NCBI RefSeq assembly: GCF_001693435.1
Contig: NZ_CM004509.1
Coordinates: 1,488,001 to 1,552,000, forward strand
Direction: 5' to 3'
From: Gilliamella sp. wkB7
GTDB taxonomy: Bacteria; Pseudomonadota; Gammaproteobacteria; Enterobacterales; Orbaceae
Length of the DNA stretch: 64,000 nucleotides
Part shown: piece after piece, positions 12,165 through 39,624 of the stretch
Position numbering within the stretch: the stretch's first letter is position 1
How the letters are laid out: the number at the start of each line of letters is the position of its first letter
The notes under the pieces: generated by a model
Told to the model about the DNA's origin: nothing
The model's database searches: none
Seen by the model: only the letters and a program-made list of their open reading frames with translations
Program-made: the position numbers and the translations under genes

Positions 12165-14363
12165 TCAGTGATGGCTCTCCTCTTCATTATCTTCATTCAT
12201 CATAGCCACATAATGAGGTAGATTGTTAGTTTGAATAAATATCTTTTTAAACAATTCAAAATATCTATCTACAGAAATAGCTAATATTCCATCTGAATTA
12301 ATACTATTTGAGTGAGATCCGTTATTAACATATCGATAAAATGCTCTGTTAACTGAAATATTGTCCCCATTAGCTAAATCATCTAAAACTTTTTTTAATT
12401 CATCTCTATTACATTGAAAAGAAAAATAATATTCTAAAATATGTCTCATTATATTTGGAACTACAATAGGATTAATCTTATCATTCCTAGCATCTTTTAA
12501 GATCATCCATAAAGACTGATAATCATTTTTTATCTCTTCTCTTTTTAATTCTTCAATTGCACTATATTGATTTTTTACTATTTTATTCAATGAATGATCT
12601 TTTTTAAATTCCCTTTCTTTGGTTTTGGTATGGATCAATAACTCCTGAAGGAAAAATAAGTTATGAGTTAAAATGACAAGTTTAAAGTTATTTTGTTTTT
12701 CGATTAATTTACAACGAATCAATGATGATATTTCATAAATATAGGAGATAGATAAACTTGATATTGGATCATCAATAACAATAAATTTTGTTTGGGAATT
12801 ACTATTATTTTGTGTGTTTGATCCTAAACATAATTCAATAAAATAAAGGAATGTTATTATTGTTTTTTCCCCTTCACTTAAACTGCGATAAACATAATCG
12901 CTATCACCATTATCTCTAACTAAATAAAAAAGATTTTTGTCATTTTCATGTTTTGCAATTTTAAATTGGTTAATACCAAGAGATATTAATGTGTCATTTA
13001 TGTTATCAATCGTTTCATCAATACTTGAAATTTCTTTCTCTTTTTCCAAAATCTCTATATTTAATTTCGATTGTTTTTTAATATATTGGTTCTTTTCTTG
13101 TTCTAGATTTTGCCTTGTAGACTCGATTTCTGATAATTTACTATTTCTATATGATATGATGTCTTTACATCTAAATTTTATCATTTCCCATAACTTTAAT
13201 TTAATAGCGCTTTCACTTTTATTATAATTAATCACATTCTGATTTATTGATTTTATTTCTAAATTAATGCCATTAATTATTTCTGTTATTTCATTGAGTA
13301 TTTCTGATATATCATTTAATTCAATAATAATAGAAGGTTTTTGTATTTTAGAATTTATCACCATAATATTATTATTAATTAATTGCTCAAAAACTTGAAT
13401 TTTTTTCCATATTTCATGATCTCTTTTAATATACTCACAAGTTGTTAAACTATCATTTAAACAAGATATATAATTTTTATTTTCACTTTCATATTTTTTT
13501 AGAAAAAAAGATATTTTTTCTAGGTTTTCGTTATAAGTATTATCAAATAATTGTTTTATTTCATTTGTAAAATTTGAATTTATTGTTTCTTTTTGGCAAA
13601 AAGGACATTTTTCATCTCTAATGTAATTGATTCCTTCTTGTACCCAATCAGAATTACATAATTCATTTATTAATTCTGATAAATAGCTATTGTCAGATGA
13701 AATAATTGATGTTTTTAAAAGTTCTAATTCTATATAAGATGGTTGATATATTTGCGGAATAATAACTTCATTTATTTTTGTATTTTTATATGAGACTAAA
13801 GTATTGTATTCATTCACTAGATTAATTATGTCTATATTTTTTGCTTCATAAATCTTTTCAAGTTGTTTTGATAATAAATCTTTTCTTAAAAAACCTGTTA
13901 ATAAAACTTTTAAATTTGAGTTTCTGATATCATCTGTTTTTTCCCAAACATCATTGTTAAATGTAGATGAAACATCCTCTGTTCTATCATTTATTTTTTT
14001 TATTTCCGTATCAATTAGCTCTATTTCTTGTTGTAACTTTTGATACTCTTCTTTTTTATTTTCAATAAATTCTATGGCTTCTTTATTATTTTTGCTTAAT
14101 GTAAAAATTCCAGATTGTTCAGCTTTGTTATAAAAACAATCAATCACAAATTGATTATTATAAACAAGATAATTATAAGTGTTATTAGTTTTAAAAGAAC
14201 ACTGAGAGTATTGAGGGTCATCTGGTGAATAAAAATATCCAGAAATAGTTGATTTACCTGAACCATTCTGTCCCCAAAAAATATTTATTTTCTTATTAAG
14301 ATTAATTTCTGTAAAACGAGTCGGATTGTAGCTTCTAACACCTTTTAAATATAATGTTCCCAT
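12165..14363 (-). CDS. RloC/PrrC-like anticodon nuclease (AAA_13 ATPase)
   Basis: 732 residues, RloC-sized (PrrC is about 400). N-terminal ABC-type ATPase: Walker A WGQNGSGKST (30-39), signature SLSEGEKTII (about 492) and Walker B FIVIDDPISSLS (about 524). The centre is long coiled coil with a CPFC zinc hook (about 253-256), an RloC/Rad50 hallmark. The C-terminal region carries Arg-x3-Glu in MRHILEYYF (about 640) and a His in NNGSHSNS (about 684), matching the Arg-Glu-His catalytic set described for PrrC/RloC. These proteins cleave tRNA anticodon loops when phage or DNA damage is sensed. No type I R-M genes adjoin it, as is common for RloC. The nuclease call rests on the R-E-H motif; a related AAA_13 ATPase of other function is the alternative. 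Confidence 0.72.
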   Translation of the reverse strand: MGTLYLKGVRSYNPTRFTEINLNKKINIFWGQNGSGKSTISGYFYSPDDPQYSQCSFKTNNTYNYLVYNNQFVIDCFYNKAEQSGIFTLSKNNKEAIEFIENKKEEYQKLQQEIELIDTEIKKINDRTEDVSSTFNNDVWEKTDDIRNSNLKVLLTGFLRKDLLSKQLEKIYEAKNIDIINLVNEYNTLVSYKNTKINEVIIPQIYQPSYIELELLKTSIISSDNSYLSELINELCNSDWVQEGINYIRDEKCPFCQKETINSNFTNEIKQLFDNTYNENLEKISFFLKKYESENKNYISCLNDSLTTCEYIKRDHEIWKKIQVFEQLINNNIMVINSKIQKPSIIIELNDISEILNEITEIINGINLEIKSINQNVINYNKSESAIKLKLWEMIKFRCKDIISYRNSKLSEIESTRQNLEQEKNQYIKKQSKLNIEILEKEKEISSIDETIDNINDTLISLGINQFKIAKHENDKNLFYLVRDNGDSDYVYRSLSEGEKTIITFLYFIELCLGSNTQNNSNSQTKFIVIDDPISSLSISYIYEISSLIRCKLIEKQNNFKLVILTHNLFFLQELLIHTKTKEREFKKDHSLNKIVKNQYSAIEELKREEIKNDYQSLWMILKDARNDKINPIVVPNIMRHILEYYFSFQCNRDELKKVLDDLANGDNISVNRAFYRYVNNGSHSNSINSDGILAISVDRYFELFKKIFIQTNNLPHYVAMMNEDNEEESHH

Positions 14364-24209: not shown

Positions 24210-24238
24210 TACTATCTCCTATTGCTCTTGTTCGTGGT

Positions 24239-24306
24239 AAAAAAAAAGCAAGACCTAGATAAACGGTAAAATGCAGCTATGCATATACAATTTATTTAGG
24301 TCCTGC
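24239..24306 (-). terminator. Leader terminator regulated by antitermination
   Basis: Minus strand: GCAGGACCTAAATAAA (24306-24291) pairs with TTTATCTAGGTCTTGC (24263-24248), followed by nine Ts (24247-24239). It shares its 5' arm with the 3' part of the RAT element, the standard mutually exclusive arrangement. Confidence 0.85.
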
Positions 24307-24327
24307 CTGCGTTACCAGTCACATGCC
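24294..24327 (-). promoter_or_regulatory. RAT (ribonucleic antiterminator) element
   Basis: The minus strand reads TGTGACTGGTAACGCAGGCA then GGACCTAAAT, matching the BglG/LicT/SacY target pattern (compare ACTG-CGCAGGCA-AACCT in bgl leaders). It overlaps the downstream terminator stem. Confidence 0.85.
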
Positions 24328-24334
24328 TGTTCAA

Positions 24335-24368
24335 TTAATATACAAACATACAATAGATGCTGAGTCAA
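24335..24368 (-). promoter_or_regulatory. Candidate bgl operon promoter
   Basis: Minus strand TTGACT at 24368-24363, then after 17 bp a weak TTGTAT -10, with TATATT a few bases further. It sits between the CRP-like site and the RAT. Confidence 0.5.
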
Positions 24369-24383
24369 TTTTGATTTAGAAGA

Positions 24384-24403
24384 ATTGTGATTTTGATCTC
24401 AAA
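24384..24403 (-). promoter_or_regulatory. CRP-like binding site
   Basis: TGTGA (24386-24390), 6-bp spacer, TCTCA (24397-24401): nine of ten half-site bases of the CRP consensus. The centre falls about 60 bp upstream of the predicted transcription start, a class I activator position, which fits catabolite control of a sugar operon. Confidence 0.6.
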
Positions 24404-24850
24404 TGCTATCATGAAACAATATCAAAAATAATTAACTGTTTTTATGCAATTTAAAGAAAATAATTAATAACAAAATTTTAATATGACCTAATAGAAGATT
24501 TTTAATCGTATGCTTTTAATGATGAATTTTACGTACTAATTAAATTAATAAAAAAATCTTTAATTACAATGGATTTTTATTATTCCTAATTTTAAATTAG
24601 CTTTCACATTTACTCCTAATATTTGAAAATTAATTTTTTATTTAAATTTTTCAGTTTTATACAAATACAAAACAATCCAAAATTATTTTAGATTTAAAGA
24701 GTTAAATTAATAATAAAATACACTAATTATTATTCTTATTTTTGAAATAAATAAAAGAAATATATCCTTAACCATGTATAATGCTTTTCTCTAAATTAAA
24801 AAATAAATACTCATAAAAATAATATTAATAATGAGAGGAATATTTAAAGC
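24404..24850. other. AT-rich divergent gap before the defence operon
   Basis: 447 bp without a gene between the bgl promoter and the MORC gene. There is a TATAAT at 24777-24782 that could be the -10 of the defence operon, about 70 bp before its start, but no good -35. It marks the left border of the island; no direct repeat or integrase was seen. Confidence 0.35.
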
Positions 24851-26326
24851 ATGGAAACTGTTTCTCTTCCTCCTATTGCAAGCTCTTTTATACAAAGTTT
24901 GAGAAGTGTGGGTTACTCTCTTGAGTCTGCTATTGCAGATTTAGTTGATAATTCTATTTCTGCACATGCTAAATCAATAAATATTTTTACACAATGGCGT
25001 AATGGTAATCCTATTTTAGCTGTTATGGATGATGGCATTGGAATGTTGCCTGAAACAATCCAAAAAGCAATGCAATTAGGTGCTATTAATCCAAATCAGA
25101 TAAGAGATAAAAGTGATCTTGGTCGATTTGGGATGGGGTTAAAAACAGCTTCTTTTTCCCAATGTAAAAAACTCATATTAATTAGCAGAACTAATGTAAA
25201 TGATAATTGGTATGGAATATGTTGGGATTTAGATCTTGTTGAAAAAACTAATCAATGGTTGGCTCAAATTATTCCTTATGATGTTTGTGAAACCTATTTA
25301 AATGATATTTCTTTCCCATCTGCAACAGGCACTGCTGTTATTTGGAGCTGTTTCGATAGAGCGATTGATCCAACTTCTATTAAGAATGATCGTGACTATG
25401 AACGACGTATCGTAAATCTTATTGATCATTTATCACTTATTTTTCATCGTTTTATTAATAATGATAATGTTTTACAAAAAGTTAATATACTTCTTAATAA
25501 CAAAGTCATAAAAGGAATGGATCCTTTTGCTATTAATCCCGAACCAGAACAGTTAGCTTCAACTTTATTGTCTGAACAAGCGATAAACATTGGAAAGAGC
25601 ACTATTCAAGTTAAGGCTTATATTTTACCTCATCCATCTAAGATGAGCCATGCTTTTTCTAACAGAGTATCGAATAAAGGTGAGCATCATCTTGGTCAAG
25701 GCATTTATATCTATCGCGCTGGAAGATTGATTGTTGCAGGTGGATGGCAAAAACTTGCTAAAGCTTCAGAAGCAAATAAATTAGCTCGAATATTAATAGA
25801 ATTTAATAATGATGCAGACCATCTTTGGTGTTTGGATGTTAAAAAATCCCGGGTTGAATTGCCAGCGTTATTACGAGAGCAATTAAAACGTATTATTTTT
25901 CAGTGTTCAATTAAGTCATCTAATACATTTACACGTCGAGCTAAAATGCAATCATTAGATCTTGAATCCATTTGGCAACGTGTATTTGACAGGGATAAAC
26001 AATATGTTGTTTATAAAATTAATAGGACTCATTCCTTGTTATCTGAAATGATAAACAGTATTGAGTCCTCCGAAATTAAATCGGCATTATTAACTCTTAT
26101 TGAAAAAGCATTACCCATTGAATTAATAAAAAATGATATTGCGGCATTAAATATAAAGTTAGTTCAGGAAACTGAAGATTCAAATCAAATGATTAAAAAA
26201 TTAATTCAAGAACTTTTAAATGTTGGATTTTCAACTGATTCCATTTTTAATGTTTTATTGAATGATAGTAACTTTTTATTAACTCCGCAAGAAATAAAGC
26301 GCTTAATTAAAAGTGCAGAAGGATAG
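24851..26326 (+). CDS. MORC/MutL-type GHKL ATPase of a restriction system
   Basis: 491 residues. GHKL (Bergerat) ATPase: N-box SAIADLVDNSIS (about 26-37), G1 box MDDGIGM (59-65), G2 box LGRFGMGLKTASF (90-102) and GTAVIWS about 155. An S5-like region follows, then a helical C-terminus. The order and context match prokaryotic MORC-like ATPases of restriction-modification islands described by Iyer and Aravind. First of five genes spaced -4 to +6 bp. GAGGAA ribosome binding site. The likely role is ATP-dependent clamping on DNA or signalling within the complex; this is from the family, not seen here. Confidence 0.8.
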   Translation: METVSLPPIASSFIQSLRSVGYSLESAIADLVDNSISAHAKSINIFTQWRNGNPILAVMDDGIGMLPETIQKAMQLGAINPNQIRDKSDLGRFGMGLKTASFSQCKKLILISRTNVNDNWYGICWDLDLVEKTNQWLAQIIPYDVCETYLNDISFPSATGTAVIWSCFDRAIDPTSIKNDRDYERRIVNLIDHLSLIFHRFINNDNVLQKVNILLNNKVIKGMDPFAINPEPEQLASTLLSEQAINIGKSTIQVKAYILPHPSKMSHAFSNRVSNKGEHHLGQGIYIYRAGRLIVAGGWQKLAKASEANKLARILIEFNNDADHLWCLDVKKSRVELPALLREQLKRIIFQCSIKSSNTFTRRAKMQSLDLESIWQRVFDRDKQYVVYKINRTHSLLSEMINSIESSEIKSALLTLIEKALPIELIKNDIAALNIKLVQETEDSNQMIKKLIQELLNVGFSTDSIFNVLLNDSNFLLTPQEIKRLIKSAEG

Positions 26327-26332
26327 CGAAAT

Positions 26333-29035
26333 ATGTGTATATTCTCAAAAGAACAAATGATCAAAATGCTTCTTGTAAATATAGAAGAAGAAGCCTATAA
26401 GAGTGAGCAAGAGATAACAAATAGTTGGCTTAACGAGCAATTACAAAAATGTTTAAGTATGCCAAGTATTACGCAGGAAGATCTCAAGGTAATAGAAAAA
26501 CGCTTCCGCCAGAAATTTAATGTTACTATTGGTGAGGCCATTATTCTTACTGGTAATGATATTGAAGATGATTGGTTAACAGAAAAAAGAAAAAAAGAAA
26601 TAGATTGGTACTATTGGAATAGATATTCTAATTATGCAAAAAGTAAAGATTTACCGAGAAATATTTTAAAAAGAACTGATTCAGATACCGATGAAATTTT
26701 AGCTCTATTAGGTGATCCTAAATCTAAAACAGCTTTTCACATTAAAGGGATGGTAGTTGGAGATGTACAATCAGGAAAAACAAATAACTATACTGCATTA
26801 ATCAATAAAGCAGCTGACATTGGATATAAATTAATTATTATTTTAACAGGAACGGTTGAAGATTTAAGAAGCCAAACACAGGAAAGATTGGATAAAGATT
26901 TTGTTGGCAGCGTATCAATAGCTGGTCGTGCAACAAGAGACAGGGAAACTAGATTTATTGGTGTAGGGCGGCTTTCGGAAAACCCGCGATTACCTTATTG
27001 TTTAACAGACCAACAAAATGACATAGAGAAAACTCCGCGCAATAGTATCGCAGGGATTAATGATCCGATTTTAGTTGTCACAAAAAAAAATACATATAAG
27101 CTAAATTACTTACTAAGATGGTTAAAATCAGAAATAAACGCAAAAAATGGTTATATAGAACAACCTATTTTAATTATAGATGATGAAGCCGATAATGCTT
27201 CTGTCAATACAGGTAATCCAGAAGAAGATCCTAAAACAATAAATCGATTAATTAGAGAAGTAATAAATACCGGACAAAAAGTTAGTTATGTGGCATACAC
27301 TGCAACACCATTTGCGAATATTTTCATCGATCCTGACTCTGATGGTGATATCGCTGATACAGAAGATTTGTTTCCAAAAGATTTTATTGTGGCATTAAAT
27401 GCTTCATCTTCTTATCATGGCGCTGCATATTTTTTTAATGAAGATCCTAGTAATCGTATTTGTAACATTATTGATGATGCAGAAAACTGTCTCCCTCTAG
27501 TTCATAAAACAGGTGTGTCTATTACATCTATACCAAAGTCTTTAATAAATGCTATTGGTGTTTTTTTATTAGCTTGTGCGGTTAAGGATCTTCGAAGAAA
27601 AAAACTTTTGATTACAAATAATGATTATGATTCTATGTTAATCAATATGTCTAGATTAACTGCGGTACAGTCTGATTTAGAACCATTCATTAAAAATTGC
27701 CTTGATGAATATTGGAATGCTATAACACTATATTCTAATCAAAATAATTGTGAACAGGTATCCAACACTATGGCAAAGCTTTATGCTTTATGGAATGAAA
27801 ATTATGCAGGCACAATAAACGAATCTTGGAAAGAGGTTTGCCAAGCATTATCACCAATGGAAGAACCTAAAGTTATTACAATTCATAGTAAATCTGGAAA
27901 CACACTGAAGTATGATCAGTATGGACCTAAAAAACAAATTATTATTGGCGGTTCGAAATTAAGTCGAGGATTGACATTAGAAGGATTAGTAGTTAGTTAT
28001 TTTTACAGACGTTCAGTTATGTATGATAGCTTAATGCAAATGGGACGTTGGTACGGCTATAGAGAAGGTTATAAAGACTTACTAAAATTATGGTTAACTT
28101 CTGAATCGTTAGATTGGTATTTTCATATATTAGAAGCAACAGAAGATTTGCGAAGACAAATTGCTGAAATGAAGAAAAAGAAAATGACGCCTAGACAATT
28201 TGGATTAAGAGTTCGAGCTTCACCTGATGCATTAATGGTCACAGCTGTAAATAAAATGAAAACGTCTACTAGGATTGTTACTCGATTACGATTTGATGAC
28301 AAATTACTTGAAACCGATTGTGTTGATTCTAGACAAGAAATCATTCAAAAAAATTTAGATGTTTTCTCTGATTTTATTCAACAAATAGCTGCTAAAGAAA
28401 GAAATCCAGAAGATATACCAGATAGTCAAAAACAACATTTACACTTTTTAAATATTTCTGCAGATATAGTTATAGGTTGTCTTGAAAAACTTACAAATCA
28501 TCCTAGTTGTGGCTTTTGGGCTGATAATTCTCAGTTTATTCCTTTTTTACAAGTTTTAGCTGATAATGATGTTAAATTATGGGATGTCTTTGTTTTTCAA
28601 CTGAAAAATTCTAGTGAGGAAAGAAACTGGATTGATAAGAATGGGAGAAAGTTTATTCAAGTAAACCGGACTGTTGTAGATATACCTAAAAATGTTAATA
28701 ATAAAAATGAATTAAGATTAAATGCAAACAGTAGACTTACAGATAAAGGTATTGAAGCCTTAGGTCTTACTAAAGAAGAAATAGAAGAAATAAATAAAAA
28801 ATTTAATGGAAAACTGCCTGCAGATAAAATATATAGAAGAAAACGAAATAAACCATCTATTATTTTTCATATAGTTAATGCTGTAAATAAAAATGATTTA
28901 CATAAAAAGACAGTTTTAGGTTGGGTTATTTCAATCCCACCATCTAACCATGCCGGCTCAGAAGTTCCATGGGAGGTTACACGTGATTGGCTTGAAAGGT
29001 ATGGAACTCAATTAACGGATGAATCAGAGATATGA
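26333..29035 (+). CDS. Z1-domain superfamily II-like ATPase
   Basis: 900 residues. Walker A VVGDVQSGKTNNYT (about 141-153), Walker B LIIDDEADNAS (about 280), SF2 motif III-like YTATPFAN (about 322), and an arginine-finger region LMQMGRWYGYREGY (about 567-580). These are the hallmarks of the Z1 family (PF10593), found as the motor of MORC-type restriction systems. It starts 6 bp after the ATPase gene, and its stop overlaps the next start by 4 bp (ATGA), so subunits are probably made in fixed ratio. Confidence 0.86.
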   Translation: MCIFSKEQMIKMLLVNIEEEAYKSEQEITNSWLNEQLQKCLSMPSITQEDLKVIEKRFRQKFNVTIGEAIILTGNDIEDDWLTEKRKKEIDWYYWNRYSNYAKSKDLPRNILKRTDSDTDEILALLGDPKSKTAFHIKGMVVGDVQSGKTNNYTALINKAADIGYKLIIILTGTVEDLRSQTQERLDKDFVGSVSIAGRATRDRETRFIGVGRLSENPRLPYCLTDQQNDIEKTPRNSIAGINDPILVVTKKNTYKLNYLLRWLKSEINAKNGYIEQPILIIDDEADNASVNTGNPEEDPKTINRLIREVINTGQKVSYVAYTATPFANIFIDPDSDGDIADTEDLFPKDFIVALNASSSYHGAAYFFNEDPSNRICNIIDDAENCLPLVHKTGVSITSIPKSLINAIGVFLLACAVKDLRRKKLLITNNDYDSMLINMSRLTAVQSDLEPFIKNCLDEYWNAITLYSNQNNCEQVSNTMAKLYALWNENYAGTINESWKEVCQALSPMEEPKVITIHSKSGNTLKYDQYGPKKQIIIGGSKLSRGLTLEGLVVSYFYRRSVMYDSLMQMGRWYGYREGYKDLLKLWLTSESLDWYFHILEATEDLRRQIAEMKKKKMTPRQFGLRVRASPDALMVTAVNKMKTSTRIVTRLRFDDKLLETDCVDSRQEIIQKNLDVFSDFIQQIAAKERNPEDIPDSQKQHLHFLNISADIVIGCLEKLTNHPSCGFWADNSQFIPFLQVLADNDVKLWDVFVFQLKNSSEERNWIDKNGRKFIQVNRTVVDIPKNVNNKNELRLNANSRLTDKGIEALGLTKEEIEEINKKFNGKLPADKIYRRKRNKPSIIFHIVNAVNKNDLHKKTVLGWVISIPPSNHAGSEVPWEVTRDWLERYGTQLTDESEI

Positions 29036-29994
29036 GTCAGAGTAATATTCCTTGGTTTTCAATGATCACTCCAGTCAAAGGTATGTTAAGTACGTTGCGA
29101 GTAAAAAGCGACCAAAAAACACCTTGGTATTGGGTAAAATGTAGGGATGAGCAATTTGGTATTGCCATACAAATACCTTTACAAGATGCTCAATATATCC
29201 ACTTAAATCATAATTATTATAGATTAAATATTCTTAAAATAAGAGGAGAAAATGACGATTGCTATTTGTGTATTGTAATAGGATCATCAGAATTATCTAA
29301 GGTTTTTTATCATTTATGTCTTGATCTTATTAGTTCATGTGAAGTTTCTATAAACTATATCGATACCATTAATATAGTAAAAAATAGAGTATTAGCATGG
29401 CAGCGGCTTTTTGAAAAAGAAAATAAGCTACTCACTCCCCAAGAGTGTATGGGATTGATTGCAGAACTTCAATTTTTAAAAGAGCATTGGATAAGTAAAA
29501 TATCTCAAACAGGCGTTTATGGATGGAAAGGTCCTTTAGGTAAGAGTCAAGATTTCATAGATGAAAAATGTGAGTTAAGCGTTGAAATCAAAACTCGTGC
29601 ATTTGATTCTAATATCATTAACATATCTTCTAGGCAACAACTGAATAGCCCTCATTCTTTATACTTAATTGTATATCCTTGTGCTATGAATACAGAACAA
29701 AATGGAATTACACTTAATGAATTCATAAAAGAAGTTAGGCAATTAATCTCTCCTCAAGAATATGCTATTTTTGATGAAAGATTATTAAATGTTGGTTATA
29801 TTCAAAATGAAAATTATGATTCATTTTATTTTAATCTTGGTAAACCGAAAAGTTATGTTATCACGGAACAGTTTCCAAAACTTACTGATATAAACATTCC
29901 TATAGGTATAGGAAAGGTAAAATACGATATTGATCTGGATTCTGTTTCAGAGCACCTTTGTCCAATAGAGAAGCTACATATAAAAGGATGTTAA
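29032..29994 (+). CDS. DUF4420 / PD-(D/E)XK motif protein
   Basis: 320 residues. SQDFIDEKCELSVEIKT (about 171-187) supplies the Asp and Glu-x-Lys of a PD-(D/E)XK nuclease core. This family (DUF4420) is regularly found beside Z1 and AIPR genes and is the best candidate for the DNA-cleaving subunit. Start overlaps the Z1 stop by 4 bp; the AIPR gene follows after 1 bp. Confidence 0.78.
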   Translation: MSQSNIPWFSMITPVKGMLSTLRVKSDQKTPWYWVKCRDEQFGIAIQIPLQDAQYIHLNHNYYRLNILKIRGENDDCYLCIVIGSSELSKVFYHLCLDLISSCEVSINYIDTINIVKNRVLAWQRLFEKENKLLTPQECMGLIAELQFLKEHWISKISQTGVYGWKGPLGKSQDFIDEKCELSVEIKTRAFDSNIINISSRQQLNSPHSLYLIVYPCAMNTEQNGITLNEFIKEVRQLISPQEYAIFDERLLNVGYIQNENYDSFYFNLGKPKSYVITEQFPKLTDINIPIGIGKVKYDIDLDSVSEHLCPIEKLHIKGC

Positions 29995-29995
29995 A

Positions 29996-32038
29996 ATGAA
30001 TGAACAGTTGACAGAATACTATACATCTTTAATAGAGCATATAAAAGTATCGTCAGATGTAGAATCTAGAATGATCGAATATGAATATCTTAGTTATATT
30101 CTAGAATTATTATCTGATGCTGGAGAATTTGATGATTACAATATTATCGAAGATGGAAGGGATGGGGCAGGTCGTTGGTTAATTGATGGCTACTCTTTTG
30201 ATGAGAATAATTTTTCTTTATCCATATTCGGGACAATAATTTCATCAACACCGGAACAATCTTCTTTATCTAAAAGAGAAATTGAAGCTGTATTGAAAAA
30301 ACTTCAAAATTTTCTTAAAAAACTTGCTACACCAGAAGTGCTTTATAATACTTTTGAACCATCGAGTAATTGCTATTATGCAGCTCAGTTTATTCAAAAT
30401 AATTGGTCTAATATTGAGAATATAAGATTTATTATTTTGTCTAATAGACTTGCCTCGGATAGGATGAAAGAAGTAAAACTAGATAATTTTGATGATAAAG
30501 TTTGTTCTGTAAATTTATGGGATTTAAAAAGAACTTTTGAACTTGAATTTTCTCGTAAAGAACGAGAGGAAATGATTATTGATTTTAGTGACTCTCCTAT
30601 TTCATGTCTCATTGCAAATCAAAAAAATGAGGAAGAAAAATCAATATTAGCAGTTTTACCTGGAGAGCAACTAGCTAAGCTATACCAACAATGGGGATCT
30701 CGTTTACTTGAGCAAAATGTTCGTAGTTTTTTACAACATAAAGGAAAAGTGAACAAAGGAATAAAAGCTACAATTCTGCATGAGCCCCTACATTTCTTTG
30801 CATATAATAATGGTCTAACAACAATAGCTAGTCAAGCAGTAATAAAAGAAACGCCAACAGGAACAGTAATAACGCAATTAAAAGACCTACAAATCGTAAA
30901 CGGCGGTCAAACAACAGCATCATTATACAGCGCATTTATAAAAGACAAAGCTGATTTATCTAATGTTTCGGTTCAAATGAAATTAACTGTAATTTCAGAT
31001 AATACGCAAAATCTAGTATCAAATATATCTCGTTATGCGAATTCTCAAAATAAAGTATCCGATGCAGATCTTTTTTCAAATCATCCTTTTCATATTCGAC
31101 TTGAAGAGTTCTCTCGTAGATTGTGGGTTCCAGCTAAAACTGGTCAAAAAGGTCTAACCCATTGGTTTTATGAACGAGCAAGGGGACAATATTTAGATGC
31201 TCAATTATATATAAGTGGTTCGAAGAAAAAGCAATTTCAATTGGTAAATCCTCGTTCACAATTACTTACAAAAACAGACGTTGCAAAAATAATGAATAGC
31301 TGGAATTGTTTACCTTATGAAGTTAGTAAAGGGGCACAAAAAAATTTCGCTATATTTGCAGAGCTCATTAATAAACAATGGGAAGAAGATGACTCTATTT
31401 TTGGTGAACGGTATTATCGAAAATTAGTTTGTTATGCTTCAATTTTTAGAGCTTTAGAAAAGGCAATTATGCCTGAAGAATGGTATTCTGGGTTTAGGGC
31501 AAATATAGTTACATATGCAATTGCTAGATTATCTAGTGAGATAAATAAACATAACTTTGAATTGAATATTGATTTACTCTGGCGTTCATCTTCGGTTTCT
31601 ACTTCAATTATTCAATTACTCTTACTTTTATCACAAAAAATTAATGAATTATTACAAGCAAATGATCGACCAATAGGAAATCCAAGCGAATATGCGAAGA
31701 GAGTTAATTTCTGGGATACAGTAAAAAAAATAAACTGTGATATAAACAACATTAAGAGTCTTTTAATTACAATAGAGGAAGTAAACTATTCAACTATTAA
31801 ATCTCAGAAAACACAAAAAATAGAGACTGGAATTAGTTTACAAGAAAAAGTAATGAGAGTCTCTAAAGACGTATGGCAAAAGATCGAAGATATTTTGCAT
31901 CAAGAAGATAAGGCTACCGTTTCGCAAATAAGTATACTAAGAATAGCAATGGATCATAAAAAAGCTCCTTCTGAAAAACAAGCAATAGTTCTAGAAAACC
32001 TTCTTAATCGTTACCAAGATAAAGTGGGAAAATTATAA
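29996..32038 (+). CDS. AIPR-family protein (abortive infection phage resistance)
   Basis: 680 residues. The AIPR (PF10592) signature LQIVNGGQTTASLYSA lies at about 299-314, preceded by PLHFFAYNNGLTTIA and followed by SRYANSQNKVSDADLFS. The family occurs in Z1/MORC defence clusters; its biochemical role is not established, although family relatives include phage abortive infection proteins. Fourth gene of the operon, 1 bp after DUF4420 and 2 bp before the GIY-YIG gene. Confidence 0.84.
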   Translation: MNEQLTEYYTSLIEHIKVSSDVESRMIEYEYLSYILELLSDAGEFDDYNIIEDGRDGAGRWLIDGYSFDENNFSLSIFGTIISSTPEQSSLSKREIEAVLKKLQNFLKKLATPEVLYNTFEPSSNCYYAAQFIQNNWSNIENIRFIILSNRLASDRMKEVKLDNFDDKVCSVNLWDLKRTFELEFSRKEREEMIIDFSDSPISCLIANQKNEEEKSILAVLPGEQLAKLYQQWGSRLLEQNVRSFLQHKGKVNKGIKATILHEPLHFFAYNNGLTTIASQAVIKETPTGTVITQLKDLQIVNGGQTTASLYSAFIKDKADLSNVSVQMKLTVISDNTQNLVSNISRYANSQNKVSDADLFSNHPFHIRLEEFSRRLWVPAKTGQKGLTHWFYERARGQYLDAQLYISGSKKKQFQLVNPRSQLLTKTDVAKIMNSWNCLPYEVSKGAQKNFAIFAELINKQWEEDDSIFGERYYRKLVCYASIFRALEKAIMPEEWYSGFRANIVTYAIARLSSEINKHNFELNIDLLWRSSSVSTSIIQLLLLLSQKINELLQANDRPIGNPSEYAKRVNFWDTVKKINCDINNIKSLLITIEEVNYSTIKSQKTQKIETGISLQEKVMRVSKDVWQKIEDILHQEDKATVSQISILRIAMDHKKAPSEKQAIVLENLLNRYQDKVGKL

Positions 32039-32040
32039 GA

Positions 32041-32622
32041 ATGAAACGAAATTATTATGTTTATGCATTAAAAGATCCTCGACAAAAACCGGCAAAAATT
32101 TTTTATGTTGGAAAAGGAACTGGAAGTAGATCTATTGAGCATATAAACAAACCTGATAATACTCGTAAAGGAAAATATATCAAAGAAATATTAAACGACG
32201 GATTTAATATTATTATTACAAAATTAGTTGATCATCTTACAGAAGAAGATGCATTACGTATTGAAATGGAACTAATCTCTTGTTTAGGTTCTATTGATAA
32301 TAATGGTATTTTATACAATTCAATTACACCTCGTAGTATACCCTCTAAATTAAAACCTAATAATATATCACTACCAGAAGATGCAATAATCAAAGCGCAA
32401 TTAGGACTGAAATTAATAAAAGAAGCTATCGTATCTTTTATTAATGAAAACCCTCAAGGAATTACAAATTCAAATTGCGCTCATTACCTTGGACTACAAT
32501 CAGATAACGAAGGCCGTCAACAAGACTATCTAAGTTACAGTATATTAGGTTTACTTATCAACGACGGAACAATTAAGAGTAAGAAAATTAATAATCGGCG
32601 AATATATATTAAGAATAAATAG
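32041..32622 (+). CDS. GIY-YIG (LEM-3-like) nuclease-domain protein with C-terminal wHTH
   Basis: 193 residues. Residues 1-90: NYYVYALKDP and IFYVGKGTGSRS give the two tyrosine/glycine strands, and ALRIEMELISCLG gives the conserved Glu of the GIY-YIG nuclease fold, LEM-3-like branch. Residues 110-193 look like a winged helix (ITNSNCAHYLGLQ, YSILGLLINDGTI). It is the last plus-strand gene, 2 bp after AIPR, and ends 8 bp from the stop of the convergent methyltransferase. I do not recall it as a standard member of Z1/MORC systems, so it may be an extra nuclease. Confidence 0.72.
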   Translation: MKRNYYVYALKDPRQKPAKIFYVGKGTGSRSIEHINKPDNTRKGKYIKEILNDGFNIIITKLVDHLTEEDALRIEMELISCLGSIDNNGILYNSITPRSIPSKLKPNNISLPEDAIIKAQLGLKLIKEAIVSFINENPQGITNSNCAHYLGLQSDNEGRQQDYLSYSILGLLINDGTIKSKKINNRRIYIKNK

Positions 32623-32630
32623 TAACATTT

Positions 32631-34169
32631 TTACTCATTAAGTAAATTGAATACAATTTCAGCTATTTGTTTTGATAAATATGGAGGAACCGCATTTCCT
32701 ACTTGAACATATTGCTGTGTTCTATTTCCCTCAAAATAATAGTTATCTGGAAAGGTTTGCAATCGTGCGGCCTCTCGAACAGTTAAACTGCGACATTGAG
32801 TGGGATCATAATGAATGAAATAATGCCCATCTTTCGAAATATGACTAGTAATAGTTGTTGAAAACTTATTCGCAGACTGAACTCGAAAACGATCTGCATG
32901 CTTTCCGGTTGACCAATTGGCATGTTGGGGAGCTAATTCAGCGGGAAAATCCCGAGACTTTGGCGAAATGCCATCATAGAGCATAGAGTAAATTGCACAA
33001 AAAGCGTATCGAAGAAGATCTGTTTCGATATGACCTCTTGTTTCATGATTTAATACCACGTTTAATTCTTTATCTTCTATCCAATTTCTTAAAAAATTTG
33101 GCATTAAAATATCTTTTGTTCCATTGTTGTTAGAACAATGTCGTTTCAATTCGTTAGACAAATTTAGATTCAATTTAGAAAAAGCCTCGGCTTTGCCCTG
33201 TTTCTCAAAATATTGGCTAAGCTGTTTTAAATAATTGGATACTACCATTATCCATCTTTCATCTGTATCTTGATGTTTAGATAAACCACTCCTTAAACGA
33301 GGAAGATCGCTGATTAAATTTTTAACTGAATTATTTTGATTTTTTGTTTTGACTAATATATTTGGAATCTTCTTAATATCATCTCTAACACCAAGCAATA
33401 TGACCCGATGCCTTGCTTGAGGTATTCCGTATTCTTCCGCTCTAATTAAAAAATCAGAATGGTTTTGATAGTCTGGATTTTCAGGCGATATTGAATTTAC
33501 AACTAATGAATAAATTTTATATCCTCTCATATTTGAAGTTCCTGTAGCAATATTTGGCTGCTTCAGGTCATCTAAAATCTGAGGAAATATCAATTTATTA
33601 TTAACTTTTGCGGATAAAATACCTCTAACATTTTCCATTACAAATACTTCTGGTTTTGCAATAGATAAAACCTCTAAATATTCTTTATATAAAAAATGTC
33701 GGTGATCTTCTTCAGCTTTATATTCTTTATTACCCGCATTACGAGAACGGCCAGCTAGTGAATAAGCTTGACATGGTGGACCACCAATTACTATTTTAAA
33801 TCCGTTATGAGATTCAACTAATTCTTTAATTCTCTTGTGAATAATTGCATTATCTTCTCCTAGAGTTTTAGGGGAGTATAAAGTCTCCTCTTGAGCCAAC
33901 ATAGCTTCTTTCGAATATTTTTTAAATAAATCTTCTCTAGTTATTTTTCCTTTCACATATCTATAATAATCTTGCCTTGCTAGATTGTTCGAAACGAGTT
34001 TTCTGAATAACGCTCTTGTTGTGAGTGTTTTATGGGCAGCAGGATCTTTCTCAACAGAGATACCTATTTTAAACGCTGATTTTCCGTCTTTTGTATTACA
34101 GGCGCTAAATCCCTCACCTAAACCACCGGGACCTGCAAATAGATCAATAACTAAAATTTCTTGATGCAT
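32631..34169 (-). CDS. DNA (cytosine-5) methyltransferase
   Basis: 512 residues. Motif I VIDLFAGPGGLGEGF (8-22), motif IV GGPPCQAYSLAGRSR with the catalytic Cys (about 128-142), motif VI MENVRGILS (about 178), motif VIII ARHRVILLGVRDD and motif X VGNAVPPYLSKQIA at the C-terminus. The long region between VIII and IX holds the target recognition domain. It is convergent with the MORC-Z1 operon and is the natural modification partner of that system; its target sequence cannot be read from here. Its own promoter should lie in the 34170-34408 gap, where I see no clear element. Confidence 0.92.
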   Translation of the reverse strand: MHQEILVIDLFAGPGGLGEGFSACNTKDGKSAFKIGISVEKDPAAHKTLTTRALFRKLVSNNLARQDYYRYVKGKITREDLFKKYSKEAMLAQEETLYSPKTLGEDNAIIHKRIKELVESHNGFKIVIGGPPCQAYSLAGRSRNAGNKEYKAEEDHRHFLYKEYLEVLSIAKPEVFVMENVRGILSAKVNNKLIFPQILDDLKQPNIATGTSNMRGYKIYSLVVNSISPENPDYQNHSDFLIRAEEYGIPQARHRVILLGVRDDIKKIPNILVKTKNQNNSVKNLISDLPRLRSGLSKHQDTDERWIMVVSNYLKQLSQYFEKQGKAEAFSKLNLNLSNELKRHCSNNNGTKDILMPNFLRNWIEDKELNVVLNHETRGHIETDLLRYAFCAIYSMLYDGISPKSRDFPAELAPQHANWSTGKHADRFRVQSANKFSTTITSHISKDGHYFIHYDPTQCRSLTVREAARLQTFPDNYYFEGNRTQQYVQVGNAVPPYLSKQIAEIVFNLLNE

Positions 34170-34408
34170 TTTTAATATTTCTAGTGATATATTTAGGAAG
34201 CTATGATATCAAGTTGAATTTGTGGAGCAATAAATTATTTTCTTAGTTAATACTTATACAATAGAAATAAGTAATAATGGAATCTTTATCACAGCGAAGA
34301 AATTATAAAAAAGCATTAGTTGTTAAATTTATAAACATAAAGTTGAATTTTTTAATTCAAACGTTATGAATTATTTTTAATATTAACATAAGAATTTTAA
34401 TGAAAAAT

Positions 34409-34660
34409 TTAGTTTTTAGCTTTTAATAACTCCCAAGGTAAATCACGTCGATTATTTACAGGTTTTAATTGACCTTCATTCCTCAATGATTGAGCTGCCC
34501 ATCGTACATCATATTGCCACGTATAGAGCATATCACCAGCATTTTTTAGCTCAGATTCATAATGTTCCCAAATATATTTACTTACTTCTCTTGGCCATCC
34601 TTTTCCACCTAAATTCTGTAAGGCTTCAATAATCCAATCTTTCATTATTTCTCTATTCAA
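34409..34660 (-). CDS. Small winged-helix-like protein beside the HNH endonuclease
   Basis: 83 residues, mixed charge, no Cys. The pattern MKDWIIEALQNLGGKGWPRE ... VRWAAQSLRNEGQLKP looks like the small winged-helix modules fused to or next to restriction endonucleases (Mrr-N-like). It follows the HNH gene by 39 bp on the same strand and is probably co-transcribed. It could regulate the nuclease or help bind DNA. Confidence 0.6.
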   Translation of the reverse strand: MNREIMKDWIIEALQNLGGKGWPREVSKYIWEHYESELKNAGDMLYTWQYDVRWAAQSLRNEGQLKPVNNRRDLPWELLKAKN

Positions 34661-34699
34661 AATAAACTCCTATGCAAATTATTTTCAATGATATTGTTC

Positions 34700-35572
34700 T
34701 TAATCCCTAAACACTTCTCTAACATGCCATTCAATAAATCTGTCATGTAAATAATCGCTTTTCATTCGAGGTAGTAAGATGTTTTTGCCGTCGAAATCCC
34801 AAAAGAGTTTTTCAACTATGTGGTTTCCATTTACCCCACTTGATACTTTGATTTTTAGATTACAATCAAGCCCGATAGCGCCCATATCGAAAGCGGAATG
34901 ATGTAATGAACAAAGTGCTAAACCATTATTTACAATGCATGGTCCGCCATGTTGTTTCCATTTTACGTGAGCAGCTTCAAGGCCGATTGATACTGAGTCA
35001 TGCCTTAAATCGTAACCGCAGATGGCACATTGATAGTTGTATGCACGTAATACGATTTGTCTGAATTTAGGATCTCGGTATTTATTGGATTCCATTAGAT
35101 TGAAGTCAAATCGATTAATTAAGTTTTCTTGCACACTTTCAGTAAAATGCTGACTTAAAATTTGTCCTGCTAATTGATCAATAATGGTAGGGTTTGTTTT
35201 TATCAGTTTATACGTTTGTTCATCAAAGCCACCGAGTACTTGGTGTAAAGCAAGGGTTTTACTGGTTGGTTCTTTACTTGGCAAAATTGGATTAGTGCAG
35301 TTTTCAAAATTAATGAGTTGCCAAAAACCGTCATTTTTCAAACGCCAAAAAGGCATATTGGGATAATAGTATTTACGTTGAGGACCAAACCGAGCGAGTA
35401 AATCATGTAAAGGTTCTTCAATTTCTTTTTTATAATCAAATAAGCGAGCATGACCTTGCTTATATTGTGCTAACACATAAAGTAACAATAAAGGTTTATG
35501 TGGAGCTCGATGATCGCCTTTTTTCCAGATGGTGATATCGGTAATTTTTTGTTGTAATTGTTTAATATCCAT
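34700..35572 (-). CDS. Phosphorothioated-DNA-dependent HNH endonuclease (McrA-like)
   Basis: 290 residues. The N-terminal ~150 residues (KGDHRAPHKPLLLLYVLAQY, FGPQRKYYYPNMPFWRLKND, GFWQLINF) resemble the sulfur-binding domain of ScoMcrA/SprMcrA-type type IV enzymes. The C-terminal HNH domain has CAICGYDLR, LEAAHVKWKQHGG, NNGLALCSLHHSAFD (His-Asn-His plus zinc Cys). Such enzymes cut DNA carrying phosphorothioate (Dnd) modification, and some also cut methylated DNA. There are no dnd/ssp modification genes in the window, consistent with a defensive type IV role. Divergent from sat. Confidence 0.8.
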   Translation of the reverse strand: MDIKQLQQKITDITIWKKGDHRAPHKPLLLLYVLAQYKQGHARLFDYKKEIEEPLHDLLARFGPQRKYYYPNMPFWRLKNDGFWQLINFENCTNPILPSKEPTSKTLALHQVLGGFDEQTYKLIKTNPTIIDQLAGQILSQHFTESVQENLINRFDFNLMESNKYRDPKFRQIVLRAYNYQCAICGYDLRHDSVSIGLEAAHVKWKQHGGPCIVNNGLALCSLHHSAFDMGAIGLDCNLKIKVSSGVNGNHIVEKLFWDFDGKNILLPRMKSDYLHDRFIEWHVREVFRD

Positions 35573-35839
35573 TAATACTCAAAATAAACGTAATAAGTAG
35601 AAAAATATTACAAATATTGTATTGTTTTTGTGATCTGCCTCACAAAATTCTGAGTTAGTATGTAAAAATGAATCAATATTTGATAGTTAGATCTAAAAAT
35701 TATTTTTATCCATTACAAACCTAAACCAATTTATGAATATGCGTAAATCGCATAATGGTATGTAAAATTGATATTTCCTTATTTGTCGATAATCGTTTTT
35801 AATTAAGCTTAATAAAAACTAGATAGGTAAGGAAACATT

Positions 35840-37000
35840 ATGGTCTTGATCCCTCCTCACGCCAGTGACCAGTTACAACCACTTCTTGTTAAAGACGATG
35901 ATCGATTGGCATTACAGCATTATGCAAAAAATCTTCCTGCAATTACGCTATCAAGTCGTGAAACTGGGGATTTAGTGATGTTAGGAATTGGTGGTTTTAC
36001 GCCACTGTATGGTTTTATGCGGGAAGAAGATTGGCGCAGTGTTTGCGATAATATGCATTTAGCAAATGGTGTTTTTTGGCCAATTCCTATCACCGTATCC
36101 GTGACCGATGCTCAAGCTGATACCTTAAAATTGGGTGATGATATTGCCCTTAAAACACCCGATGGGCAGATAATTGGTATTTTAAATGTTGATAGTATTT
36201 ATCGACCTGATAAACAATTTGAAGCGATGCAGGTGTTTACAACAACCGATCAAAGTCATCCTGGCGTTGCGATGCTTATGGCTCAGCCACCTGTTAATTT
36301 AGGTGGTAAAGTGCGTGTTTTCCATGATAATGGTTTTAAAACTCAATTTGGTCAATATGCATTAACACCACAAGAGACACGAGAACGTTTTAATCAATTA
36401 GGTTGGCATAAAATCGCGGCTTTTCAAACTCGTAACCCGATGCATCGTTCGCATGAATATTTAGTCAAAACAGTATTAGAGCTTTTTGATGGGGTACTTA
36501 TCCACTCTCTATTTGGTAATTTGAAAGCAGGTGATGTACCGGCAAATATTCGTCTTAAAGCTATTAATACGCTAATTTATAACTACTTTGTGCCTGATTC
36601 TGTTGTTCATTCTGGGTATCCTTTAGATATGCGTTACGCGGGCCCCAAAGAAGCGTTACTGCATGCCCTTTTTAGACAAAACTATGGTTGTAGCCATCTT
36701 ATTGTCGGTCGCGATCATGCCGGTGTCGGTAATTATTATTCGCCGTTTGCGGCACAAGATATTTTTACCCAATTACGGGATGAAGATTTACTCATTAAAC
36801 CAATCAAAATTGACTGGACATTCTATTGCCATAAATGTGCAGGTATGGCATCAAGCAAAACTTGCCCACATGACAGTGATGATCGTGTTCTTATTTCAGG
36901 TACTGAGGTAAGGCGGCGTTTGCAAACAAAAGAACCCATACCTGAAACATTTAGCCGACCTGAAGTTGTTGCTGAATTATATCAATGGGCAAACCAGTAA
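35840..37000 (+). CDS. sat: Sulfate adenylyltransferase (ATP sulfurylase, Sat type)
   Basis: 386 residues, single-chain ATP sulfurylase, not the CysDN heterodimer of E. coli. It makes APS from sulfate and ATP. Motifs: FQTRNPMHRSHE (ATP-binding QxRNPxH), LIVGRDHAGVGNYY, and the Cys/His-rich FYCHKCAGMASSKTCPHD near the C-terminus. There is no fused APS-kinase domain. First gene of the sat-cysHJI run, with AAGGAAA ribosome binding site. The 35573-35839 gap upstream should hold its promoter and the divergent HNH promoter, but no clear CysB site was identified by eye. Confidence 0.95.
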   Translation: MVLIPPHASDQLQPLLVKDDDRLALQHYAKNLPAITLSSRETGDLVMLGIGGFTPLYGFMREEDWRSVCDNMHLANGVFWPIPITVSVTDAQADTLKLGDDIALKTPDGQIIGILNVDSIYRPDKQFEAMQVFTTTDQSHPGVAMLMAQPPVNLGGKVRVFHDNGFKTQFGQYALTPQETRERFNQLGWHKIAAFQTRNPMHRSHEYLVKTVLELFDGVLIHSLFGNLKAGDVPANIRLKAINTLIYNYFVPDSVVHSGYPLDMRYAGPKEALLHALFRQNYGCSHLIVGRDHAGVGNYYSPFAAQDIFTQLRDEDLLIKPIKIDWTFYCHKCAGMASSKTCPHDSDDRVLISGTEVRRRLQTKEPIPETFSRPEVVAELYQWANQ

Positions 37001-37049
37001 TACGCAAAATAAATAATTACTCATCGATAAGTTGATAAGGGAGAAAACC

Positions 37050-37685
37050 ATGCTAGATTTATCCAAAGTTAACCAGAAATTACAAAACCAGTCACCGTTA
37101 ACCATTATTGAGTGGGCATTAAAGAAGCAACAAGATATTCCAGTCAAAAGTATTATTAGTACCCATTTTGGACCATATGAAGCAGTGCTTCTTCATCTTG
37201 TTACCCAAGTTGATCCAAATATTCAGGTTGTTTGGGTTGATAATGGTTATGCAACAAATGCAACCTATCGTGTTGCCAATAAAATTACAAAGCAACTTAA
37301 TCTTAATCTACATATTTTTGTACCACAACGAACGACCGCTTATTTAAATGTGCGATACGGTGGATTACCTGAATTAGATACGCCAGAGCATACCGAGTTT
37401 ACCCAAATTGTCAAAATTGAGCCGTTTAATCGTGCTTTAGCCACACTCAAACCAACGCTATGGTTTACTGCGCTACGTCGTGAACAATCTGCGTTAAGAC
37501 AGGAGTTAAATATTGTGACAAAAGCGGGAGATAATTTATTTAAGATTGCCCCTCTCCTCGACTGGACAAGTCAAGATATGCAGAACTATATCGAAAAACT
37601 TAATTTACCTAATGAGATGGATTATGTCGATCCAACTAAAGGACCGCAAGGTAGAGAGTGTGGCTTACATAAAATAACCTTTTGA
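37050..37685 (+). CDS. cysH: Phosphoadenylyl-sulfate reductase family protein (CysH)
   Basis: 211 residues, slightly shorter than E. coli CysH (244). It reduces activated sulfate to sulfite with thioredoxin. Motifs: STHFGPYEAVLLHLV (P-loop-like), WFTALRREQSALR and the catalytic C-terminal RECGLHK. It lacks the paired CC...CxxC cysteines that bind a 4Fe-4S cluster in APS reductases, so by family rules it should be a PAPS reductase; yet no APS kinase gene is in the window. Start is ATG 37050 with AAGGGAG upstream, not the TTG at 37032. Confidence 0.86.
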   Translation: MLDLSKVNQKLQNQSPLTIIEWALKKQQDIPVKSIISTHFGPYEAVLLHLVTQVDPNIQVVWVDNGYATNATYRVANKITKQLNLNLHIFVPQRTTAYLNVRYGGLPELDTPEHTEFTQIVKIEPFNRALATLKPTLWFTALRREQSALRQELNIVTKAGDNLFKIAPLLDWTSQDMQNYIEKLNLPNEMDYVDPTKGPQGRECGLHKITF

Positions 37686-37791
37686 TTTTAGAAATAGATA
37701 CACATTGGACTTTGCTGATAATCGTTGAGTAAAACAATATTATTAGGATTTAACAGAACATTTTAAGGTTGCTAGGTACTGGCAATTTACC

Positions 37792-37809
37792 GATAGCGCA
37801 AAAGCTATC
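37792..37809 (+). other. Small hairpin before the cysJ ribosome binding site
   Basis: GATAGC / GCTATC with a 6-nt loop, 6 bp before AAGGGAA. It may affect cysJ translation; its significance is uncertain. Confidence 0.3.
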
Positions 37810-37824
37810 AAATAAGGGAATCAC

Positions 37825-39624
37825 ATGAGCACACAACATTTTCCTTTTAATTGTGATGAATTAAAAAAAATTATTGAAAAGTCCAGTGATAAACAGCTCG
37901 CTTGGTTGTCTGGATATTTATGGGGACTTGCAGAAAAAAGTTCAAATGAACAAGCATTACCGAATATCACAACTACCACCGACGTAACGCAAGCTGAGCA
38001 AGCGAAAAAAGTTACGATTTTATCAGCATCACAAACAGGTAATGCTCGTCGAGTAGCAAATGAGTTAACTCAAGATATTGAGCGTTTAGGTATTGAAGTG
38101 ACACATCTGCCTGCTGGCGAATACAAAGCCAAAAAATTGAGTCAGGAAGAAATTTTAATCTTAATTACCTCAACACAAGGTGAGGGCGAACCACCAGAAG
38201 AAGCATTACCACTCTATAAATACCTTTTTGCTGGCAAAGCCCCTAAATTGGCAAATCTACAATTTGCGGTAATGGGTTTAGGTGACTCTTCTTATCCAAA
38301 ATTTTGTCAAGCTGCTAAAGATTTTGATCAACGATTAGCTGAATTAGATGCTCAGCGTATGTTATTACGCGTTGATGCTGATACAAATTTTCAAACTGTA
38401 AGTACCAATTGGCGACAAGCTGTAATTGATAAACTTAGCAGTCTACAACAATCGACTTCAATATCATCAACAGAAAATAATACTTCAAGCAGTGTCGTTG
38501 TTAACAGTAGCCTTTATCACCGCGATAATCCCTTTATTGCACCCGTTAATGTGAATCAAAAAATTACTTCTCGCGATTCGGATCGCGATATCCGTCATAT
38601 TGAATTTGACCTTACCGGTTCTGATATTAACTATCAACCGGGCGATGCGTTAGGAGTTTGGTATCAAAATAGCGATGAGCTTGTCGATGAAATTCTTAAT
38701 ATTACCCAGCTTACCGGTGATGAGCAGGTCGAACACAATGGTCAACAAATTACTTTAAAAACAGCTCTGATTGAGCATGTTGAATTGACTCAAAATACAC
38801 CCGTCATTATTGAGAAATATGCCCAAGCAATTCAAAATCCTGAACTGCTTACCTTAAGCAAAGACAGAGAAGCTTTGATAGAAATGAGTCAAACATTACC
38901 ACTGGTTGATATGCTTAATCGTTATCAAAGCAATCTTACCGCACAAACATTAGTTGCATTGCTTCGACCTCTTACACCTCGTTTTTACTCCATTGCATCA
39001 GCGCAAGATGAAGTTGGAGACGAAGTTCATCTTACCGTAAATGTGGTGCGTTATCAGATCGAAAATAAAACCCGTACTGGCGGTGCATCAAACTTTTTAG
39101 CCAATCAAATTGCTGACCAAGATCAGGTCAAAATTTTTGTTGAACATAATGATAACTTTAGATTACCTAATGATACCAATACGCCAATCATCATGATTGC
39201 TGCCGGTACTGGCATTGCACCATTTAGAGCTTTTTTACAACAACGTAGTGCTCAATGTGCTACGGGTAAAAATTGGTTATTTTTTGGCAATCCACATTTT
39301 ATTTCTGATTTTCTGTATCAAGTGGAGTGGCAAAATTATGTTAAAGAAGGTCTGTTAACGAATATCGATCTTGCGTGGTCACGAGATCAAGCGGAGAAAA
39401 TATATGTACAAGATAAATTAATTGCTCAAGGCAGTGAGATTTGGCAATGGTTGCAACAAGGTGCCTATATCTATGTTTGTGGGGATGCGAAGCGCATGGC
39501 AAAAGCGGTTGATTTAGCATTACAACAAATTCTGATGACTCAAGCTCAATACAGTCAAGAGCAGGCCATCAACTATTTAGATGAGTTAAGAAGTCAAAAA
39601 CGCTATCAACGAGATGTTTATTAA
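37825..39624 (+). CDS. cysJ: Sulfite reductase [NADPH] flavoprotein alpha (CysJ)
   Basis: 599 residues, same size as E. coli CysJ. Domains: flavodoxin-like FMN domain (about 70-210; TILSASQTGNARRVANEL, STQGEGEPPEEA), connecting domain, FAD domain with RFYSIAS (about 388) and NADPH domain with AAGTGIAPFRAFLQQR and YVCGDAKRMAKAV. It passes electrons from NADPH to CysI. Follows cysH by 139 bp and precedes cysI by 47 bp. Confidence 0.96.
   Translation: MSTQHFPFNCDELKKIIEKSSDKQLAWLSGYLWGLAEKSSNEQALPNITTTTDVTQAEQAKKVTILSASQTGNARRVANELTQDIERLGIEVTHLPAGEYKAKKLSQEEILILITSTQGEGEPPEEALPLYKYLFAGKAPKLANLQFAVMGLGDSSYPKFCQAAKDFDQRLAELDAQRMLLRVDADTNFQTVSTNWRQAVIDKLSSLQQSTSISSTENNTSSSVVVNSSLYHRDNPFIAPVNVNQKITSRDSDRDIRHIEFDLTGSDINYQPGDALGVWYQNSDELVDEILNITQLTGDEQVEHNGQQITLKTALIEHVELTQNTPVIIEKYAQAIQNPELLTLSKDREALIEMSQTLPLVDMLNRYQSNLTAQTLVALLRPLTPRFYSIASAQDEVGDEVHLTVNVVRYQIENKTRTGGASNFLANQIADQDQVKIFVEHNDNFRLPNDTNTPIIMIAAGTGIAPFRAFLQQRSAQCATGKNWLFFGNPHFISDFLYQVEWQNYVKEGLLTNIDLAWSRDQAEKIYVQDKLIAQGSEIWQWLQQGAYIYVCGDAKRMAKAVDLALQQILMTQAQYSQEQAINYLDELRSQKRYQRDVY

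Follow-up and report, generated by a model that had tools for sequence, protein, structure and literature searches.

The linkage of MORC ATPases to restriction-modification was proposed on computational grounds by Iyer, Abhiman and Aravind in 2008. Their third type of MORC operon joins a MORC protein with an S5 signature to an SF2 helicase and a nuclease of the restriction endonuclease (RE) fold, and the available part of the paper also names cytosine methylases and AIPR (PMC2292703). Here we describe a six-gene set from Gilliamella sp. wkB7, located at 24851..34169 of a 64,000-nucleotide window (NZ_CM004509.1, positions 1,488,001 to 1,552,000), that matches this layout. Five genes on the + strand are followed by a C5 cytosine DNA methyltransferase gene on the - strand (lengths in amino acids, aa):

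24851..26326, +, MORC-family GHKL and S5 ATPase (MzaB-like, P0001), 491 aa; Pfam, PADLOC, NCBIfam, PDB matches, conservation
26333..29035, +, SF2 helicase (P0002); motif of the C-terminal domain
29032..29994, +, DUF4420 PD-(D/E)XK nuclease (MzaD-like), 320 aa; Pfam, alignment, model
29996..32038, +, AIPR protein (MzaE-like), 680 aa; Pfam, alignment, conservation, model, VIA-align
32041..32622, +, LEM-3-like GIY-YIG nuclease, 193 aa, an accessory gene and the last of the operon; Pfam, PADLOC, alignment
32631..34169, -, C5 cytosine DNA methyltransferase, 512 aa, in convergent orientation to the operon with a gap of 8 bp

All six frames are open and the active-site residues are present. The intact operon and facing methyltransferase seen in the initial annotation are borne out. 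Judged from sequence, the set probably marks self DNA by methylation and uses ATP to drive the destruction of unmarked invading DNA. The restriction-like reading of the initial annotation is supported. The layout has already been predicted in print, and the cluster is a genuine representative of the predicted type, complete and with open genes, not a new kind of system.

Motifs of the core and known systems

The profile searches proposed in the initial annotation gave matches. The MORC ATPase scores 104.9 bits with HATPase_c_3 and 222.6 bits with PADLOC MzaB, and its PDB matches are headed by MORC2, with MORC4 and MutL next. The MORC signature GhXhhpXXRhl is found as GIYIYRAGRLI (residues 284-294 of P0001), and at least 95% of 48 loci keep positions 284, 286, 288, 289, 292 and 293. 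The helicase motif DThhQXuRhFG appears as DSLMQMGRWYG (P0002 565-575); Phe occupies the Tyr position in 42 of the 48 loci, and the remaining motif positions are invariant across them. The DUF4420 protein (176.8 bits) has an N-terminal beta domain (~16-105) and a nuclease core of E145, D174, E185-x-K187 and Q203. All 42 aligned sequences keep the E-D-ExK residues E145, D174, E185 and K187 unchanged. Its predicted structure has a pLDDT of 88 and a pTM of 0.77, and structure search gave no confirmation of the RE fold. The initial annotation held all key residues to be intact. The ATPase N-box is a variant (AxDxxDNSI), with an invariant Asp in place of the catalytic Glu of GHKL proteins, and the helicase carries Ser for Thr and Tyr for Phe.

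The AIPR protein (AIPR 325.4, AIPR_N 109.4 bits) has been described as a toxin-like Abi protein, and AIPR is stated to be a HEPN RNase, in the available part of PMC3506569; such an RNase would have an all-helical HEPN domain at its N-terminus. Residues 1-189 may form a restriction-fold-like domain, in which no conserved D...(D/E)xK was found. Residues ~211-358, with many invariant residues, are a candidate ParB/DndB-like domain, followed by an apparently helical C-terminus. A Foldseek search with the model returned no significant match.

The third-type MORC operon shares with this locus the S5 signature, the DThhQXuRhFG-like motif, the E-D-ExK nuclease and insertion at a hotspot. It differs in the three substitutions just given and in the GIY-YIG gene, which the available text does not mention. 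Neither that gene nor a convergent methyltransferase is mentioned in the available text on a putative 'Type II' system from 2022, where the DUF is printed as DUF4220 (PMC9523054). Compared with MzaABCDE (Gao 2020; via PADLOC, NCBIfam and the same paper, as far as available), the present locus has homologues of MzaB to MzaE, which follow one another alphabetically, but it has a C5 methyltransferase and lacks the sigma factor MzaA. PADLOC homology is strong, yet scores stay far below the NCBIfam equivalog cut-offs (MzaB to MzaE, 253/850, 455.3/1500, 115.8/420 and 337.6/1050 bits). The genome's matches to MzaA (1096063, 1689536 and 1461323) all lie outside the window, and the best of them resembles a housekeeping factor in having every sigma-70 region, 1.1 among them. 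Strict membership of MzaABCDE was rejected on the scores and the missing MzaA.

CglI and NgoAVII are three-gene systems with a PLD+B3 R-protein and without MORC, DUF4420 or AIPR, according to the parts available of PMC4267653 and PMC5737866. Pfam finds no PLD-B3 domain in the locus proteins, and CglI-type membership was rejected; two genomes from this genus (G015/L193 and G019/L194) carry sets of that type, which served as positive controls. Pin25611FIII of Prevotella intermedia has a C protein and a smaller methyltransferase and is listed as an orphan; MORC is absent from, and DUF4420 unmentioned in, the available text (PMC5608340).

The methyltransferase and the GIY-YIG protein

The methyltransferase (Pfam 159.4 bits; TIGR00675 148.7, cut-off 100.65), whose motifs were checked by conservation, is the sole one of its type found in the genome (one PF00145 match) and belongs to a clade of eight tips. 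The neighbourhood survey, which includes 68 complete loci, finds a C5 methyltransferase kept at 71 of 73 distinct loci. At 32 of 53 complete loci it lies upstream of the core, on the same strand and within 150 bp. Its co-divergence with that of the core reaches no more than 0.56-0.61. At L051 and L052 the core proteins are 9-16% apart and the methyltransferases 68% apart, likely a natural swap and useful for locating the specificity subunit.

The GIY-YIG protein scores 41.1 bits with PF22945 (cut-off 27) and 31.1 bits with PADLOC PD-T4-3 over residues 4-85. Y6, Y8, Y22, R30, H34, E75, E77 and N93 are invariant in 12 aligned sequences, and by eye the C-terminal segment looks winged-helix-like. 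The protein has 921 homologues. Full-length members of the family stand beside the system in three lineages, those of window/G748, L002 and L200. Within the 101 surveyed loci the full-length family occurs only at L002, L021 having an 81-aa partial match (69-76 bits). At L140 it accompanies a methyltransferase of the same clade without the core. The L140 and L200 elements encode a tyrosine integrase, GIY-YIG protein, large GHKL-domain protein, C5 methyltransferase and a 464- or 489-aa protein without a Pfam match; L139, L140 and L200 came from GIY searches and are a biased sample. At L142 and L143 homologues lie beside genes such as those for poly(A) polymerase and GatB, and those stretches have no C5 methyltransferase or core gene.

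Island, hotspot and neighbours

Of the 35 genomes of the genus that were compared, one has the system. Its GC content is 31.4%, lower than in the flanking DNA (33.2% on one side, 37.0% on the other). Two intergenic regions adjoin it:

24210..24850, AT-rich, ~640 bp, 5' of the operon; promoter-like sites show no excess over shuffled sequences
34170..34408, 5' of the methyltransferase gene, whose promoter presumably lies here

The interval 24402-35711 is a defence hotspot. Four relatives have joined flanks, and at L107 and L108 the same spot holds a C5 methyltransferase with an MvaI/BcnI-type enzyme, or one with GmrSD_N and AAA genes. A 14.6-kb block (24704-39341) comprising the system, an HNH gene and a sulfate adenylyltransferase gene is shared with L139, from another genus, at 93-94% DNA identity up to the end of the compared stretch. 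The adenylyltransferase gene is present in 7 of the 35 genomes, this one included. The HNH enzyme (34700-35572, -; NF045808, 420.3 bits, cut-off 180) belongs to the restriction family that binds phosphorothioate DNA. Four members of the genus retain it at 94-97%, and its neighbours differ among them. Between it and the methyltransferase lies an 83-aa frame (34409-34660, -; 78 aa from ATG) without a Pfam match. Of the other loci searched, L139 alone has this frame, which is possibly a winged-helix protein, judged by eye. Farther off, a 732-aa ATPase-like protein (12165-14363, -) matches the phage-defence candidate PDC-S06 (765 bits); its gene lies in a very AT-rich stretch of 22-24% GC.

Alternative readings and the value of the locus

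Several points weigh against methylation-guided restriction: the core is homologous to that of a sigma-factor system (PMC9523054, as far as available), its divergence follows the methyltransferase loosely, with L051 and L052 mismatched, and AIPR has been called toxin-like. Set against these are the retention of the methyltransferase and its frequent place just upstream of the core. It is quite improbable that an orphan methyltransferase sits in a decaying or silent island whose genes are hotspot passengers without present activity. Rarity in the genus, low GC and unremarkable promoter-like sites would fit such an island, but six open genes with their active-site residues, and a block so well preserved in another genus, do not.

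The GIY-YIG protein could be the main nuclease of this version, with DUF4420 structural, since it keeps its family's invariant residues and closes the operon; restriction enzymes of GIY-YIG type exist. This is very improbable given the invariance of the DUF4420 catalytic residues, the rarity of the full-length family among surveyed loci and two homologues that occur without the system. Somewhat less doubtful, though still unlikely, is a partnership with the methyltransferase and not the restriction core, through Vsr-like nicking of T:G arising from deaminated 5-methylcytosine or other guarding of the modified site. No Vsr was found by profile in the GIY-bearing stretches (window/G748, L002, L200, L140) or in the window genome; it is present at 30 of 71 other well-flanked loci, and its absence from three independent GIY lineages has a chance of ~0.19. 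That the GIY-YIG protein stands in for Vsr is no more than suggested, and the partial match at L021, which coexists with Vsr, argues against it.

New in this account are the association with a GIY-YIG gene, the Asp that is invariant in the ATPase, the reading of the AIPR domains, the hotspot and the presence of a single C5 methyltransferase in this genome. The cluster is of value as an intact test case for a predicted type of system, and because the genome has only one C5 methyltransferase, it would allow a clean test.
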